A stretch of 64,000 bases of DNA from Paraeggerthella hongkongensis (GCF_003340345.1 NZ_PPTQ01000013.1:1-64000), one strand, 5' to 3'. Shown: positions 18,693 through 25,709, numbered from the stretch's first letter. The notes: generated from the letters alone by a model not told the origin. Translations and numbers: made by a program.

Positions 18693-18757
18693 CGTGCCCT
18701 TGTAGCTCAGGGGATAGAGCGTCTGCCTCCGGAGCAGAAAGCCGCAGGTTCGAATCC
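18693..18757 (+). repeat. attL-like direct repeat, 65 bp
   Basis: Identical to 25631-25695. It covers three bases before the tRNA through the first two bases of the 3' T-stem (GGTTCGAATCC). After 18757 the sequence leaves the tRNA (ATTTTGCC instead of TGTCAAGG). Confidence 0.9.
18696..18757 (+). pseudogene. tRNA-Arg(CCG) remnant without 3' end
   Basis: The acceptor 5' strand, D-arm, anticodon arm with CCG and T-loop are intact. The following bases ATTTTGCCTG cannot pair with the T-stem GCAGG or the acceptor GCCCTTG, so no mature tRNA can form. It still sits behind the original -10 box. Confidence 0.88.
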
Positions 18758-18758
18758 A

Positions 18759-18773
18759 TTTTGCCTGTTCAGA
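18759..18773 (+). repeat. Left inverted arm of the island
   Basis: TTTTGCCTGTTCAGA matches the reverse complement of 25616-25630 (TTTGTCCTGTTCAGA) at 13 of 15 bases. In a circular island the two would flank the 65-bp tRNA core, as integrase-binding arm sites do. Confidence 0.7.
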
Positions 18774-18861: not shown

Positions 18862-19773
18862 ATGGTCAGGAAAATCAGCCCTAAAACACTCAATTCAGTG
18901 AACGTCGCGCCGTGCGATATCGAAGGAAAGACAGCGAACGAAATCACCTGTCAACAGGCGTTCGATCAGTTCCTGTTCTCAAAAAGACAGCAAGGATGCC
19001 GAGCCAAAACGATACAGACCTACGTTTGCCACGTGCAGGAGTTCGTAAGCTGGTGCATGGGCGGCAATCCCGCAAGCTCAAAACAAAGAACGGCTTCTCC
19101 CCTCTTTTTCGCCATCGGAAGCATCAGGAAGCTCCATGTCGAAACATGGGAGGGCATACTCCGAAACGAACTCGGCAACATGGACACGTCGGTTCAGACG
19201 AAGGTGAAGTCCATTCGAACGTTTTTGTATTGGTGCATGGACGAAGAGCGGGGCTGGGTGAAGCCCTTCAAGATCAGCCTCCCCAAAGCGGATATGACTC
19301 TGAAAACGCCCTACAGCCAAGCCGAATTGGACGTGTTGCTCATGCAGCCCAAGACCGACGATTTGACCGAATGGAGAACGTGGGCGGCTATCAGCTTCAT
19401 CGTTCGAACCGGCGTGAGACTCTCAACCGCCGTTAACGTGAAATGGTGCGATATCGATCTGGAAAAGCATGTTTGCATCCTCCGGCACACCAAGACCAAC
19501 GAGCAATACTACGTGCCCGTCCCTACCGATGCCATGCTCGACCTCATGACGTGGCAGAGCATAAGCCCCGCGACAGAGGAAGGGTACGTGTTCTTCAGCA
19601 CTTACACAGAGAAGAAGCTCAATCCGAACGGACTCTATCACGCCATTCACAACTACAACCTGGCGCGCGGAGTAAGCAAAACGTCGGTGCATCTTCTTCG
19701 GCATACGTATGTCAAGCACACGACAAAAATGTATTTCTGTTTTTGCGTATTGTACTTATTTATACAATTTTAG
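18862..19773 (+). pseudogene. Tyrosine recombinase/integrase, C-terminus lost
   Basis: 303 residues. The SAM-like N-terminal domain (about 25-120) and most of the catalytic domain are present: the first catalytic Arg in TGVRLSTAVNVKWCDID, the Lys region in LRHTKTNEQYYVPVP, and HLLRHTYVKH. Then the frame turns into an AT-rich tail, KMYFCFCVLYLFIQF, and stops. The expected LGH/W helix and the nucleophilic Tyr are missing, so it should not cut DNA. The break at about 19722 coincides with the drop in GC that marks the cargo. The start has GGGAGG upstream. It lies 104 bases from the left repeat. Confidence 0.85.
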
Positions 19774-19881: not shown

Positions 19882-22800
19882 TTACTGCTCAATCTTCTTC
19901 TGTACGAAATGCTCAATAACATTGTTAAATATAATGTCATCAAATTTTTTGCCAGAGAATACACCATTACAAATTTCCATTAACCAATCGACATCTTCGG
20001 ATGGAAGCTTGCTCTTCAATAAACGAAGCATTCCCGCGATGTTGGTCTGAATACCCTGTGTTTCAGCTGCAAGATAGAAGGCATCTTCCGGCTCCGTCAA
20101 CAACTCCACAGATTTAGAATATGTCCATAGTTCTTCTGCAACATCTCCTATGGGAAGTTGATCGACATCGATGGAGTTTTTTTCAGGCAAATCATATTTT
20201 TCAATAAAGCAGTCGAGCATTTGCGCTGTCACGTCCACAGGAAATGGAGGCATCAGTTCATCAAGCAATGAATGATTCCCTGATTCGATTGCCTTCTTGA
20301 TGTCAACGAACATCCGTCGAGGGAACTGTAAAGCAATAGGGTTTATTTCTTCGGACTCGTTTGCAGATAAAATGACTAGGTAATCAAAGGGAGCATCCGA
20401 AAATGCGATACAGCCCAGAAGACATTCGGTTAAATTGTCTTCCGATGTCATATCAAAATCACCAACTATGATGGGATAATAGCTCAACATGTCAGTGGTG
20501 TAAATTTGATCAGGAAAATGAATCGAATACTTGGATTCTAATTTCGACAATCCGTCTTCTGCTATCTTTCTCTCATCCCGACAATGCCCGTCATACCAAT
20601 TCCTAATTTGATATTTATTAAAATACTTATTTGGCGAATGTGCCTGGTAGTAGCTACAGCACATTATTAGTCGCTCTATGCTTTGTGTCTCCATAACACA
20701 AAGAGCTAACTGTCTTTCCTGGAAGCCAAAATCAATTGCGATTTCTGCAAAGTAATTCTGCATTGTCACAAGAGTACTTTGGGCTGTCGTAAGGTTAACC
20801 ATAGCCAATCTTTGTTTTTGCTCATCCTTAACGAGGACCCCTACAAACTGATTCGTAAAGTTACGTATGCTTTGAAAGTACTTACTCTTTATTTTTCCTA
20901 ACCTCTCGGGCACTGTAGCTTTTTCTTCAAAAGGACGATCTTCCTTAGGATATCGCTTTTCACCAGTAGTAATTAGGGCAAATTCTTCACGAAGTTGATC
21001 CACCTCACCGGCCAAACTCCCTAATGGTTTTTCACCAAGAAGTTTATAAACACAGGCACAGCACTTATCTGCAAGCAAACATATATGTTCTCTCACATCA
21101 AACCAGTAATTTAACCATTCTGTCACGGTATCAAATTCGTAATTGCTCATAATGGTCTTGTTCCATAGCGACGTAAGATTCTGATGGAACATGATTACAA
21201 TGTTTCTAATGGGCATTTCTTTATGCGCATCTTCAGGTACGGTATAAGCAGATAATAAACTTAAAGTTGGTTTTAATGCATCCGCACAGTACAAATCAAA
21301 TATAGGTAATGTCCTGCAGACATATTTCAACCTCGAAACACTTTGCTCATTTCCGGTTTTGATATTGCGCAATTGAAGTATATACTCAACATGAATTGCA
21401 TTCTTTCCGGAATCAATAAATATTTTGTGTGATTTTGTTTGCTGTTTGAGGTATGTAAGGATATGCTTAAGATTTCTTCCGACAAACTCCATATATACAT
21501 CTTTGTTACCACAGTAGGAGATATACATTAGAGTTGAAATGCACTCCAAAGTTAATTTTTCCGGCTCGATCCAAATATCGTCCAAAGAGATGCTTGCAGA
21601 CAAATTAAATTCAGAATTTATGTTGTATATCCATTCGGAAATGGAGGCATAAGATGCAATGTCTTTTATCTCGGCAAAACTAAGAGGAAGTAATTTTCTA
21701 TATAAACAATTGCAAAAAGCATGGACAAGAGTTTTCTGCAAATTACAGGCGGGAATACGATCGCGTAATTCGCAAAGATATTCTACATTCTTATTATCTG
21801 GGAGTACTTCTTGCATCTTGTCAAGAGTGTCTATCGACACGCCAAACTCTGTGAATGCTGCAAAAGGACACATTTCGGTCGATATGACGAATAGTCCACC
21901 ATGGGCATTTGCATCGTCGAACGCAGACTGATTTGAAAGATAATACTGCATCACGCTCCCTGAAAAAAGCCCCTGTATTGCAAGAATATAGTTCGATAAA
22001 TCATCCTTATCCCACAATACCTCTACAATATTTCTGAAGAATTCATCGTTGTTGAGATTAAACTCTGGTAGATGAGAAAACATTACAGGAAGATCTGCTT
22101 TTCCTGTAATTTTAATAACGGAAATAGCTGTGTTGTCAACAGAAAGAAATTCGTGCAATCTATCAACAACATGTTTAGATCTGATGGGATGAAGCCCTTC
22201 AATATACCCTCTTTCAGCATTCACATGTACAAGGAACTCGGATTCCATACTTTTTAAGAGCTCCCCAAAATCCGAGCCAGAGTCTTCTGATTGACTCGCA
22301 TAAAGGTCGGCAACAGAAAGCCTGACTCCGCAAAGATCTGCAAAACATACTTTGCGTAGGATTTCACATTTTGCTTTGCCAGAAGATGATTGTCCTATTT
22401 CGGATATTTGTGAGGCTATTCTTTCTGATAGCATCTCGCCATGAGTAAGCAAGTAGACATACTCTATAAGTAGTCGTCTTTCTGCAATCTTATTCCATGC
22501 TCTTTGCCAGCTTGTCATGCTTGGGTGAAGCTGCTTAGCCTCTCTGAATAGATTGAATATCTCTATTGCTTCCTTTTCTTCTAAAGCCGGCTTAATTACT
22601 TTCAAAGACTGAATATTGCTCAAGTCGCCACTATAATTGTACCAATCAATCTCTCGCGATGTGATGAGCAACTTATAATGACAATGCAATTCGGATTGTA
22701 AGAGCTGAACAAGATAATTCCATTTGCTGAGATGGTTATCCAGATTGTCAATTAAGATAAGAATCTTTTCACCAAGCTGAATTCTTGCTTTGAAATATTG

Positions 22801-23829
22801 GACGATATTTCCAATCTCTTTGATTTCATCGCACCACAATAATTGATATGGTACATATTCATCTTGGAGGATATAAGCTGTCTGCAAAGCCAGTGTGGTT
22901 TTTCCTTGCCCACTAGAAGCTTTAATTACAGTAACCGTGTTTTCGCAAATGGAATTAATAACATCTTTCTCTAAGCTCGGTCGTTTGATTGGAAGCCCAC
23001 TTGCTATATCTACTGGTGTTGCTTTTTTCCCCTCGTAAAAACTACGACCTTCATCAAGGCTAGGCTTAGAGTAGTCCAGTTTACGAATCCAACTATGAGC
23101 TGGATTCTGAGGACCCTTACTGATATCTATTTTGACAGATTGGATTTGGGAATCTAATTCCGCTTTGGTCACATAGGCCCGCTGCTCCATTTTTTCAAAG
23201 CAAAGGATTTTTATGCCGTTTGCAAATAAAGAAACATTGTCCGTGTTAATCTCATAAGTTCCAATTAAGGCTTTTTCAATTTCAGCAGCAAGTATAGATT
23301 TTTCTATCTTCTCAAATGACAAATGTGAAATAAATTTATCGAAATCATATGCAGACCAATTCCAAGAAGGATTGTTTTGCTTGATATTTAAAATCGCATC
23401 AGTCCAATAGATGCGTGATTTTTCATCCAAATCAGATGCAAATATCTTACTTAGATTGCCTTTTGCAACAGGGAAATCATAAACCAGCTTAAAAAATCTA
23501 TTTTGATCCAGCAAATATGCTTCAAGAAAGTTTTTAAGCACATCATGCAAAAAGCTGGCATCCTGTTTGTTGACAGAATATTTCAGCTGTATATGAGTGA
23601 CATCACTGCTGTCATTTTTCTGCTTAATACAATCAATATCTTCAATTCCCTCAAGCTGAAAAGAAATGCCCGGACTTGATGACGAAAGAATTAAATAGCA
23701 CGAATACAAGAATTGATACGAGTACCCTTTGAGTGCGATTTGTCCGCCATCTCTAGAAATACTTAATTCCTGGATATTTGCTTTTGGCGCTGCAACTTTT
23801 TTGCTTTTCTTCTTTGTGCCTTTTCCCAT
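19882..23829 (-). CDS. Nuclease-STAND NTPase fusion, candidate anti-phage protein
   Basis: 1315 residues. Residues 28-90 match the PD-(D/E)xK fold of DUF4297/Cap4-type nucleases: GGQIALKGYSYQFLYS, then E60 and D64/D66 in LEGIEDID, then Q81 and K83 in HIQLKYS. Residues 300-420 are a STAND-type NTPase with Walker A ASSGQGKT (304-311), Walker B ILILID (356-361) and the TSRE sensor (390-393). The remaining 900 residues are mostly helical with no motif I recognise; in Avs-like proteins this part senses phage proteins. The ATG at 23829 has GAAAGG eight bases upstream; a GTG at 23838 lies in the ribosome site. The gene is AT-rich unlike its flanks. It stands alone with no partner gene, and an IS copy lies 29 bp in front. 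The defence role is inferred from architecture and context. Confidence 0.8.
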   Translation of the reverse strand: MGKGTKKKSKKVAAPKANIQELSISRDGGQIALKGYSYQFLYSCYLILSSSSPGISFQLEGIEDIDCIKQKNDSSDVTHIQLKYSVNKQDASFLHDVLKNFLEAYLLDQNRFFKLVYDFPVAKGNLSKIFASDLDEKSRIYWTDAILNIKQNNPSWNWSAYDFDKFISHLSFEKIEKSILAAEIEKALIGTYEINTDNVSLFANGIKILCFEKMEQRAYVTKAELDSQIQSVKIDISKGPQNPAHSWIRKLDYSKPSLDEGRSFYEGKKATPVDIASGLPIKRPSLEKDVINSICENTVTVIKASSGQGKTTLALQTAYILQDEYVPYQLLWCDEIKEIGNIVQYFKARIQLGEKILILIDNLDNHLSKWNYLVQLLQSELHCHYKLLITSREIDWYNYSGDLSNIQSLKVIKPALEEKEAIEIFNLFREAKQLHPSMTSWQRAWNKIAERRLLIEYVYLLTHGEMLSERIASQISEIGQSSSGKAKCEILRKVCFADLCGVRLSVADLYASQSEDSGSDFGELLKSMESEFLVHVNAERGYIEGLHPIRSKHVVDRLHEFLSVDNTAISVIKITGKADLPVMFSHLPEFNLNNDEFFRNIVEVLWDKDDLSNYILAIQGLFSGSVMQYYLSNQSAFDDANAHGGLFVISTEMCPFAAFTEFGVSIDTLDKMQEVLPDNKNVEYLCELRDRIPACNLQKTLVHAFCNCLYRKLLPLSFAEIKDIASYASISEWIYNINSEFNLSASISLDDIWIEPEKLTLECISTLMYISYCGNKDVYMEFVGRNLKHILTYLKQQTKSHKIFIDSGKNAIHVEYILQLRNIKTGNEQSVSRLKYVCRTLPIFDLYCADALKPTLSLLSAYTVPEDAHKEMPIRNIVIMFHQNLTSLWNKTIMSNYEFDTVTEWLNYWFDVREHICLLADKCCACVYKLLGEKPLGSLAGEVDQLREEFALITTGEKRYPKEDRPFEEKATVPERLGKIKSKYFQSIRNFTNQFVGVLVKDEQKQRLAMVNLTTAQSTLVTMQNYFAEIAIDFGFQERQLALCVMETQSIERLIMCCSYYQAHSPNKYFNKYQIRNWYDGHCRDERKIAEDGLSKLESKYSIHFPDQIYTTDMLSYYPIIVGDFDMTSEDNLTECLLGCIAFSDAPFDYLVILSANESEEINPIALQFPRRMFVDIKKAIESGNHSLLDELMPPFPVDVTAQMLDCFIEKYDLPEKNSIDVDQLPIGDVAEELWTYSKSVELLTEPEDAFYLAAETQGIQTNIAGMLRLLKSKLPSEDVDWLMEICNGVFSGKKFDDIIFNNVIEHFVQKKIEQ

Positions 23830-23852
23830 ATTTCGCACCTTTCATTCTCTTA

Positions 23853-23882
23853 TTGGTAGCGTCCCGAAAGTTGGTGCATCAA
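23853..23882 (-). promoter_or_regulatory. Possible hybrid promoter at the IS end
   Basis: On the minus strand TTGATG (complement of 23877-23882, inside the IS terminal repeat) and TACCAA (complement of 23853-23858, outside the IS) are 18 bases apart. They could form a weak outward promoter for the nuclease-STAND gene that starts at 23829. IS256-family ends are known to supply -35 boxes. The -10 is poor. Confidence 0.3.
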
Positions 23883-25284
23883 TCCGTTTTGGAGGGCGGA
23901 CGAAGCCTGCCCGAGAAAAACGGCCATCGTCCAGAATCGTTAATCACCACAAAAAACGGATTCAGGGAAAGGCGATGACCGTCGTGGACACTGTACTATG
24001 CAACGACCCGGAAGTGAAGAGGCTCGCGCTCGAGGCGCTCGAGGAGTGCACCGACCTGCAGGCGTTCGGGCGCAGATGCCTGGAGATCCTCTTGAACTCG
24101 CTCGTGTCAGCGAAGGCCAACGAGGCGTGCGGGGCGCCCTACGGCGAGCGCAGCCCCGAGCGCACCAACAGCCGCAACGGCTACAGGGAGCGCGGCCTTC
24201 TCACGTCCGCAGGGGACATAAGGGTCGGGATCCCGAAGCTGAAGACGGGGACGTTCTTCCCCCGAGGACCTCATAGAGCGCTACTGCCGGGCGGACCGTG
24301 CGCTCGCGGCCGCGGTGGCCGAGATGTACGTCATGGGCATCTCCGCGCGCAAGATGGAGGAGGTGGCGGGCGTTCCGCCGTCAGCGCTTCGACGGCGTGA
24401 GGTTCGCCCACCCGTGGCTCGACGCCACCTACGTCAAGTGCCGGGTCGACGGCCGCTCGGTCTCCCAAGCCGTCGTGACCGCCATCGGGCTCGACGACAC
24501 GGGCCACAAGCGCTTCCTGGGCGTGGACTGCGCCGACACCGAGTCCCACGCCGGCTGGAAGGCGTTCCTGTCCGACCTGCGCGCCCGCGGCGTGGCCGCC
24601 GGCGAGGACGGGGCGCAGCTCGTGGTGTCGGACGCCCACGAAGGGCTCGAGTCGGCGATAGCCGAGACGTTCCAATGGGCGGCCTGGCAGCGCTGCGTCA
24701 CGCACCTGATGCGCAACGTCGTCGGCCACGTCCACAGGAGGGAGGACCAGAGGATCGCGCGCGAGGCGATGAAGGCCGCCTTCGCCCAGAAGAACCCGCT
24801 CGTGGCGCGGGCGCACTGCCAGAGGGCGGCCGAGGAGGTCGCGAAGCCGTCGCCGTCGGCGGGCGGGGTCCTGCTGGAGGCGGAGGAGGCTCTCGCCTAC
24901 CCGGCCTTCCCCGTGTCGCACAGGACCAAGATCCGCACCGACAACGTGCAGGAGCGGGCCGACCGCGAGATCAAGCGGCGCACCAACGTCGTGCAGGGCT
25001 TCCCTTCGCGCGAGTCCCTCATCCGCTTGGCGAGCGCGGTGCTCATCGAGGCCGACGAGGAGCGGTCGGTGAGCTGCGTCATCTCGAAGCCGTTGCCTGC
25101 CCACGCATGGAGAAGAGCCGAGGGATCGACGCCGAGCGAGGAGTCCATGCTCGCTGCAAGGCAGGCCGCCGTCGAGATAATCTCGGCGGCGATTGACCCC
25201 GAGGGCGAGCAAGGGCAGCATTCATCGAGCAGGGGTGGCCGGCGATTCCAGCGATGGCCCTTGATGCACCACAAATCGGGACGC
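23859..25284 (+). mobile_element. IS256-family insertion sequence, decayed
   Basis: The left end 23859-23881 (GCGTCCCGAAAGTTGGTGCATCA) is repeated inverted at 25262-25284 with 19 of 23 bases matching. The enclosed transposase belongs to the mutator/IS256 family. No 8-9 bp target duplication is visible, so one flank has probably been rearranged. Its GC-rich base composition contrasts with the AT-rich gene beside it, which suggests it came later from a Coriobacteriia-type host. Confidence 0.8.
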
Positions 25285-25630: not shown

Positions 25631-25695
25631 CGTGCCCTTGTAGCTCAGGGGATAGAGCGTCTGCCTCCGGAGCAGAAAGCCGCAGGTTCGAATCC
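25631..25695 (+). repeat. attR-like direct repeat, 65 bp
   Basis: Identical copy of 18693-18757. Here the sequence continues into a correct tRNA 3' end. Confidence 0.9.
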
Positions 25696-25709
25696 TGTCA
25701 AGGGCACCA
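25634..25709 (+). tRNA. tRNA-Arg (anticodon CCG)
   Basis: 76 bases. Acceptor GCCCTTG pairs with CAAGGGC, the anticodon arm TCTGC-CTCCGGA-GCAGA shows CCG, the T-arm is GCAGG-TTCGAAT-CCTGT, and CCA is encoded. It is the only complete copy in the window, rebuilt at the right end of the island. Confidence 0.95.

Follow-up and report, generated by a model that had tools for sequence, protein, structure and literature searches.

A probable nuclease-STAND defence receptor on a tRNA-Arg island of Paraeggerthella hongkongensis

Results

A single chain of nuclease, STAND switch and sensor candidate

A stretch of 64,000 nucleotides from Paraeggerthella hongkongensis (GCF_003340345.1, NZ_PPTQ01000013.1:1-64000; hereafter the window) contains a gene at 19882-23829 whose 1315-residue product is quite probably a single-protein defence receptor-nuclease of the Avs-like (NLR-like) kind. 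It joins an N-terminal effector nuclease, a STAND NTPase and a long C-terminal sensor candidate in one chain, the arrangement known from Avs (AVAST) proteins. An earlier note made from the sequence alone had proposed an Avs-like anti-phage system here; the checks of structure, family and defence neighbours reported below all support that proposal, and from them we infer anti-phage activity.

The open reading frame of 1315 codons runs on the minus strand (19882..23829), with its ATG at 23829 and its stop codon at 19882-19884. The coordinates in the earlier note hold, with the strand corrected to minus. A ribosome-binding site, AAAGGTG, can be read 6 nt 5' of the ATG (23836..23842, minus strand), with a similar one at L012 (we number the loci of relatives with the prefix L). 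The AT-rich composition described earlier is borne out, with a G+C content of 37-40% versus about 60-65% in the flanks. Because relatives are full-length (27-88% identity) and under purifying selection, the gene is not a chance frame; the ratio of nonsynonymous to synonymous substitution rates between same-length relatives (75-88% identity) and the window copy is 0.15-0.28, and the protein is therefore maintained by selection.

Residues 25-240 (23110..23757, minus strand) form the putative effector, a PD-(D/E)xK nuclease similar to Cap4, DUF4297 and LmuA, as indicated by profiles, the structural model and residue invariance. The Cap4-like pattern first noticed in the sequence consists of real and conserved residues: E60, D64, Q81 and K83 are identical in 27/27 aligned proteins, and D66 is kept in 22 of these. 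The PADLOC profile of LmuA matched at 35 bits, DUF4297 also matched, and NCBIfam returned a weak DUF4297_antiphage match. When a profile of 21 relatives was aligned with solved LmuA (E 0.001) and DUF4297 (E 0.004), the active-site region brought the catalytic E/D and Q-x-K into register (QED...QVK in LmuA, IED...QCK in DUF4297). The spacing of D64, Q81 and K83 equals that of D50, E67 and K69 in Cap4, and Q81/K83 corresponds to Q58/K60 of AbpA, the pair whose mutants served to ask whether AbpAB defence requires the nuclease (PMC10732053). Structure prediction, proposed earlier as a check of the fold, yielded a PD-(D/E)xK-type nuclease with the conserved D...(E/Q)xK of the Cap4/DUF4297/LmuA superfamily; VIA-align over about residues 30-238 gave Z 17.5 for DUF4297 in HerA-DUF (9c1m), 16.0 for Cap4 (6wam) and 15.9 for LmuA (9nxx). 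All full-length relatives read (profile search, 397 Lachnospiraceae genomes) carried the same nuclease, and no exchange of the effector was seen among full-length relatives read, in scans that at first leaned partly on nuclease motifs.

The nuclease is followed by the switch, an nSTAND_NTPase5 domain at residues 262-420 (22570..23046, minus strand) with the P-loop SSGQGKT, the Walker B strand ILILID and a TSR motif. The PF25199 model matched residues 262-402 at 58.2 bits (cut-off 34), and the STAND motifs listed in the earlier note proved well founded: 26/27 proteins retain both the Walker A lysine (K310) and R392, and the remaining one has a gap there. Model and alignment place a winged-helix/arm region with a conserved GLHPxRS directly behind it (residues 421-600; 22030..22569, minus strand). 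A model of residues 1-660 (mean pLDDT, the predicted local distance difference test, 85.6) contained the expected STAND module, and its best Foldseek match in the PDB was Avs3 with phage terminase (E 1.2e-12), followed by Avs5 (2.9e-9), SAMD9, Avs4 (6.3e-9) and Cap4 (2.6e-7). In VIA-align, residues 239-607 ranked human SAMD9 top (Z 21.7, 319 residues, 4.2 Å), and the 1-660 model gave Avs5 (9jap) Z 16.2 and Avs3 Z 15.2, the latter over 379 residues with a large rmsd (17.6), for which domain placement is probably responsible. A single-sequence PDB search returned nothing useful.

The sensor candidate comprises residues 601-1315 (19885..22029, minus strand) and is modelled as an alpha-solenoid-like half followed by helices with a small beta-containing domain and a helical tip. 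The model of residues 561-1315 (755 residues) reached a pLDDT of 89.1 and a predicted TM-score (pTM) of 0.80, and found no PDB or viral-model match at E <= 0.001 when searched as a single long piece, within which a small known fold is possible. Its best VIA row was an unrelated protein (Z 8.1), no known DNA-binding fold turned up in the structure searches, and no PDB sequence matched the C-terminal region. With no described relative in PDB, viral-model or sequence searches, the sensor candidate appears, as first suggested, to be undescribed. Its extent is smaller than the roughly 900 familyless residues claimed at the outset, namely about 715-755, since the winged-helix/arm of the switch takes up residues 420-600. 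Two candidate identities were rejected as background, a repeat protein (scattered HEAT-type VIA rows only, Z 5-6) and an AadA-like match at about residues 1080-1216 (Z 6.7); the absence of Avs sensors from the C-terminal VIA list was not taken as evidence.

Divergent blocks in the sensor

Comparison of the window copy with L008 gave identities of 64% in the nuclease and 66% in the NTPase versus 40% in residues 1000-1200 and 35% in residues 1200-1315. In these sequence comparisons, the predicted sensor evolves fastest while the nuclease and NTPase stay constant. Residues 533-867 (21229..22233, minus strand) are a block replaced in the Blautia and Coprococcus copies: relative to L013, the rate of synonymous differences is 0.47 inside the block versus 0.11 outside (reached in 0/300 shuffles), and the border at 867 adjoins a low-confidence loop of the model (860-865). 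A second divergent block, residues 1138-1315 (19885..20418, minus strand), carries an allele different from that of L012, with a synonymous rate of 0.34 in the last 180 residues versus 0.10 elsewhere (0/300 shuffles). Since selection at the protein level alone would not cluster synonymous differences, this pattern points to recombination of whole blocks, by which parts of the putative sensor were exchanged.

The tRNA-Arg island and its insertion sequence

The island setting proposed for the gene is confirmed by a perfect 65-bp direct repeat of the 5' part of tRNA-Arg(CCG) that bounds 6,938 bp. The left repeat (18693..18757, plus strand) corresponds to the opening 65 bp of the tRNA-Arg region and survives as a truncated tRNA, and the right repeat (25631..25695, plus strand) lies inside the complete tRNA-Arg(CCG) gene (25634-25709). 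In a sister genome (G001) the island is absent: a single intact tRNA-Arg separates homologues (97-98% identity) of the two flanking proteins, which we take to be a methyltransferase resembling TrmA and a membrane protein resembling GtrA. The repeats and this empty site therefore define a 6,938-bp insertion in tRNA-Arg. Its left truncated tRNA (18693-18760) keeps the native promoter, while the intact tRNA has island-derived DNA upstream, so the island must supply expression of the Arg(CCG) tRNA.

The nuclease-STAND gene, described in the earlier note as alone in the island, is not strictly so: two damaged elements share the island. One is a tyrosine recombinase (integrase) without its C-terminal end (18862..19773, plus strand; Phage_integrase 58.8 bits), whose frame stops shortly past HLLRHTYVKHT. 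The other is an IS256-family insertion (23859..25284, plus strand) with inverted repeats at 23859-23882/25261-25284 and a transposase broken into two frames (Transposase_mut, transpos_IS256), at which no matching target duplication was found. This insertion begins 30 bp upstream of the gene start, and DNA similarity with relatives ends at 23854, beside the insertion end at 23859; because similarity stops at this edge, the native upstream region was removed by the insertion or an adjoining deletion. The sequence immediately upstream of the gene in the window host yielded no promoter-like site. The insertion may silence or drive the window copy, which may be poorly expressed. The gene could even be a silenced passenger of an island that is now immobile, given its truncated integrase, and five relatives (L018, L021, L023, L024, L030) are likewise broken or cut. 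We consider this possible but do not favour it: the frame is intact, the active sites are conserved, the ribosome-binding site is retained, and insertion sequences can supply promoters. Among close homologues, Fic/DOC-family genes lie upstream at L017:7681-8547 and L022:8773-9894, and a similar stretch of upstream DNA occurs in L012-L014.

Relatives and their neighbourhoods

The 1315-residue protein is horizontally acquired and was carried in on this small mobile island. No other copy was found in 396 genomes drawn from its own phylum (1/396 counting the gene itself), and a genome scan detected copies of 82-88% identity in Lachnospiraceae such as Blautia wexlerae and Coprococcus comes. More distant copies (27-75%) occur in Oscillospiraceae, Clostridium, Paenibacillus and Bacteroidota. 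A profile search found the gene in 10 of the 397 sampled Lachnospiraceae genomes, and in a quick tree the window copy is nested in the Lachnospiraceae group. Viral contigs gave matches in an alignment scan and none in a single-protein scan. L013 (Blautia) and L014 (Coprococcus) share a near-identical insert (gene, TnpV, MobA/MobL) after a RumA/TrmA-like gene, which therefore indicates a recent intergenus transfer.

Defence genes neighbour relatives at L003, L007, L008, L009, L010, L011, L020, L026, L031 and L079, in agreement with the association that the earlier note expected of homologues. They include Avs1a and Avs1b beside L031, HamA/HamB (Hachiman) near L026, Shedu SduA near L009, GmrSD near L011, Ppl near L020, a TIR protein near L079, and methylases of type I restriction-modification near L008 and L010. 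LmuA matches of the L031 neighbours were discounted, as the Avs1a/Avs1b models match better. In profile and PDB searches, no named family outside defence matched closely.

Other relatives are carried by mobile elements: phage head, tail or lysis genes mark prophages at L008, L010, L019 and L082, a MobA/MobL relaxase lies near L013, TnsA/TnsB-type genes place L027 in a Tn7-like element, and some copies reside on plasmids. Such carriage would suit a protein that protects its element by excluding rival phages or plasmids rather than by defending the host, a function compatible with the same molecular mechanism. We regard element protection as less likely; it does not exclude a defence receptor-nuclease, and phages and satellites also carry STAND defence genes (PMC9122126).

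Three further neighbours were recorded. Directly upstream of the homologue at L009, a 1526-aa protein (L009:2876-7453) with a weakly LmuA-like N-terminus and a central ATPase (PDC-M54A-like) is itself nuclease-STAND-like. A caspase-family protease gene (L078:3723-5090; PF00656, 90 bits) lies <=10 bp from a distant homologue on the same strand, in an operon-like arrangement. A fragment of a RelA/SpoT-like nucleotidyltransferase is found downstream of homologues at L024:14002-14508 and L018:5478-5969 (PF04607 25 bits, just under the cut-off, in L024, the copy scanned).

Discussion

A different function could be read from the nuclease. In a DNA-sensing restriction or anti-plasmid enzyme, the C-terminus would, as in Lamassu or HerA-DUF4297, read foreign or oddly structured DNA, which would then be cut directly with no protein trigger. 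The nearest nucleases, LmuA and DUF4297, do act on DNA with ATPase partners, and relatives occur on plasmids and mobile elements. The NTPase is, however, a STAND switch nearest to the SAMD9, Avs5 and Apaf-1 types and not to SMC or HerA, and the structure searches with the C-terminal model found no known DNA-binding fold, which makes such an enzyme improbable. A MalT-like STAND regulator, suggested by the likeness of one part of the switch to MalT (8bob, VIA Z 13.8), is scarcely credible: the active site of a nuclease is conserved at the N-terminus, and no helix-turn-helix output domain was found.

An Avs-like defence receptor-nuclease is favoured by the domain profiles and structural matches, the aligned catalytic residues, the defence and prophage neighbours, the sensor-biased divergence with block replacement, and the sporadic occurrence (10/397 Lachnospiraceae genomes, 1/396 in its own phylum). 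Several observations weigh against it. None of the PADLOC models of Avs1-5 matched the window protein at E<=1 or seven of its relatives at E<=0.01. The PF14130 Cap4_nuclease match stayed below threshold (17 versus 26.2 bits), and the Walker B residue D361 is aligned in only 21/27 proteins. Clear defence islands do not surround the nearest relatives (L012-L017, L022), which are found within mobile elements or ordinary chromosomal DNA; many neighbours were chosen by eye before scanning, and the association with defence genes is a plain tally of loci. The missing promoter-like site described above counts in the same direction.

If the protein nevertheless works as a receptor-nuclease, its C-terminal module (about 600-1315) would hold the STAND switch (262-600) off at rest. 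During infection this module would bind a newly made ligand, which is most probably a phage protein of a conserved kind, upon which the NTPase would bind ATP and oligomerise. Oligomerisation would gather the N-terminal Cap4/DUF4297-type nuclease domains, which would then cut double-stranded DNA and abort infection. We infer nuclease activity, oligomerisation, ligand type, cell death and expression in the host, the mechanistic steps by analogy with Avs3, Avs4, Cap4 and AbpA.

Avs-type proteins let bacteria detect conserved phage proteins such as terminase, portal or JADA, in a way that parallels the detection of pathogens by NLRs, and few of the triggers are known. The nuclease and NTPase families are already described; the novelty lies in the combination of the two with this sensor and in the apparent swapping of sensor blocks among closely related alleles. 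The family offers a defined effector and switch together with a compact sensor of ~700 residues modelled with high confidence. Its natural close alleles (window, L012, L013, L017) differ mainly in exchangeable sensor blocks and could show which part sets specificity. Tentatively, we suggest a separate lineage of single-protein nuclease-STAND receptors with a switch nearest to SAMD9 among the solved structures searched, a new sensor fold for an undescribed conserved protein of gut-Firmicutes phages, and a specificity changed by swapping modules (~533-867, 1138-1315).

Comparison with known systems

Avs3 (8dgc) and Avs4 (8dgf) likewise combine an N-terminal nuclease, a central STAND NTPase and a large C-terminal sensor in one polypeptide. 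They differ in matching the window protein by no sequence model, in length (1315 aa versus the 2028-residue Avs3 chain) and in the C-terminus, whose model has no significant PDB match. Avs5 (SIR2-STAND; 9jap) has a similar nSTAND-type switch, which is itself structurally close to SAMD9 (PMC12931631), but combines a SIR2 NADase effector with nSTAND3, whereas the window protein pairs a nuclease with nSTAND5. Avs1 is also a STAND defence system and shares the island of L031; its Avs1b is a separate protein, however, and a profile comparison with Avs1b of L031 aligned the P-loop only. The open-access literature searched, as distinct from subscription papers, contained no paper on an Avs type 6 or on nSTAND5.

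Among other systems, LmuA, Cap4, DUF4297 (HerA-DUF) and AbpA share the nuclease fold and the D-Q/E-x-K active site (PMC10732053). These nucleases are partnered with SMC, cyclic-nucleotide SAVED, HerA or helicase modules, whereas that of the window protein is fused to STAND; no SMC gene (LmuB), as required for Lamassu, adjoins it in the window. The best of all VIA-align rows was human SAMD9, over 319-336 residues of the NTPase and winged-helix region 239-607 (Z 20-22). SAMD9, a eukaryotic antiviral factor, has different N-terminal domains and no Cap4-type nuclease. The window thus holds a bacterial nuclease-STAND protein with a switch structurally closest, by VIA-align, to that of a human antiviral protein. 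The kinship with Avs proposed by the earlier note holds for anatomy and fold, with Avs3 as the best Foldseek match, and not for recognition by the Avs1-5 sequence models. Because no such model matches, we file the protein beside Avs1-5 rather than among them, as one that would work like an Avs- or NLR-type sensor nuclease.
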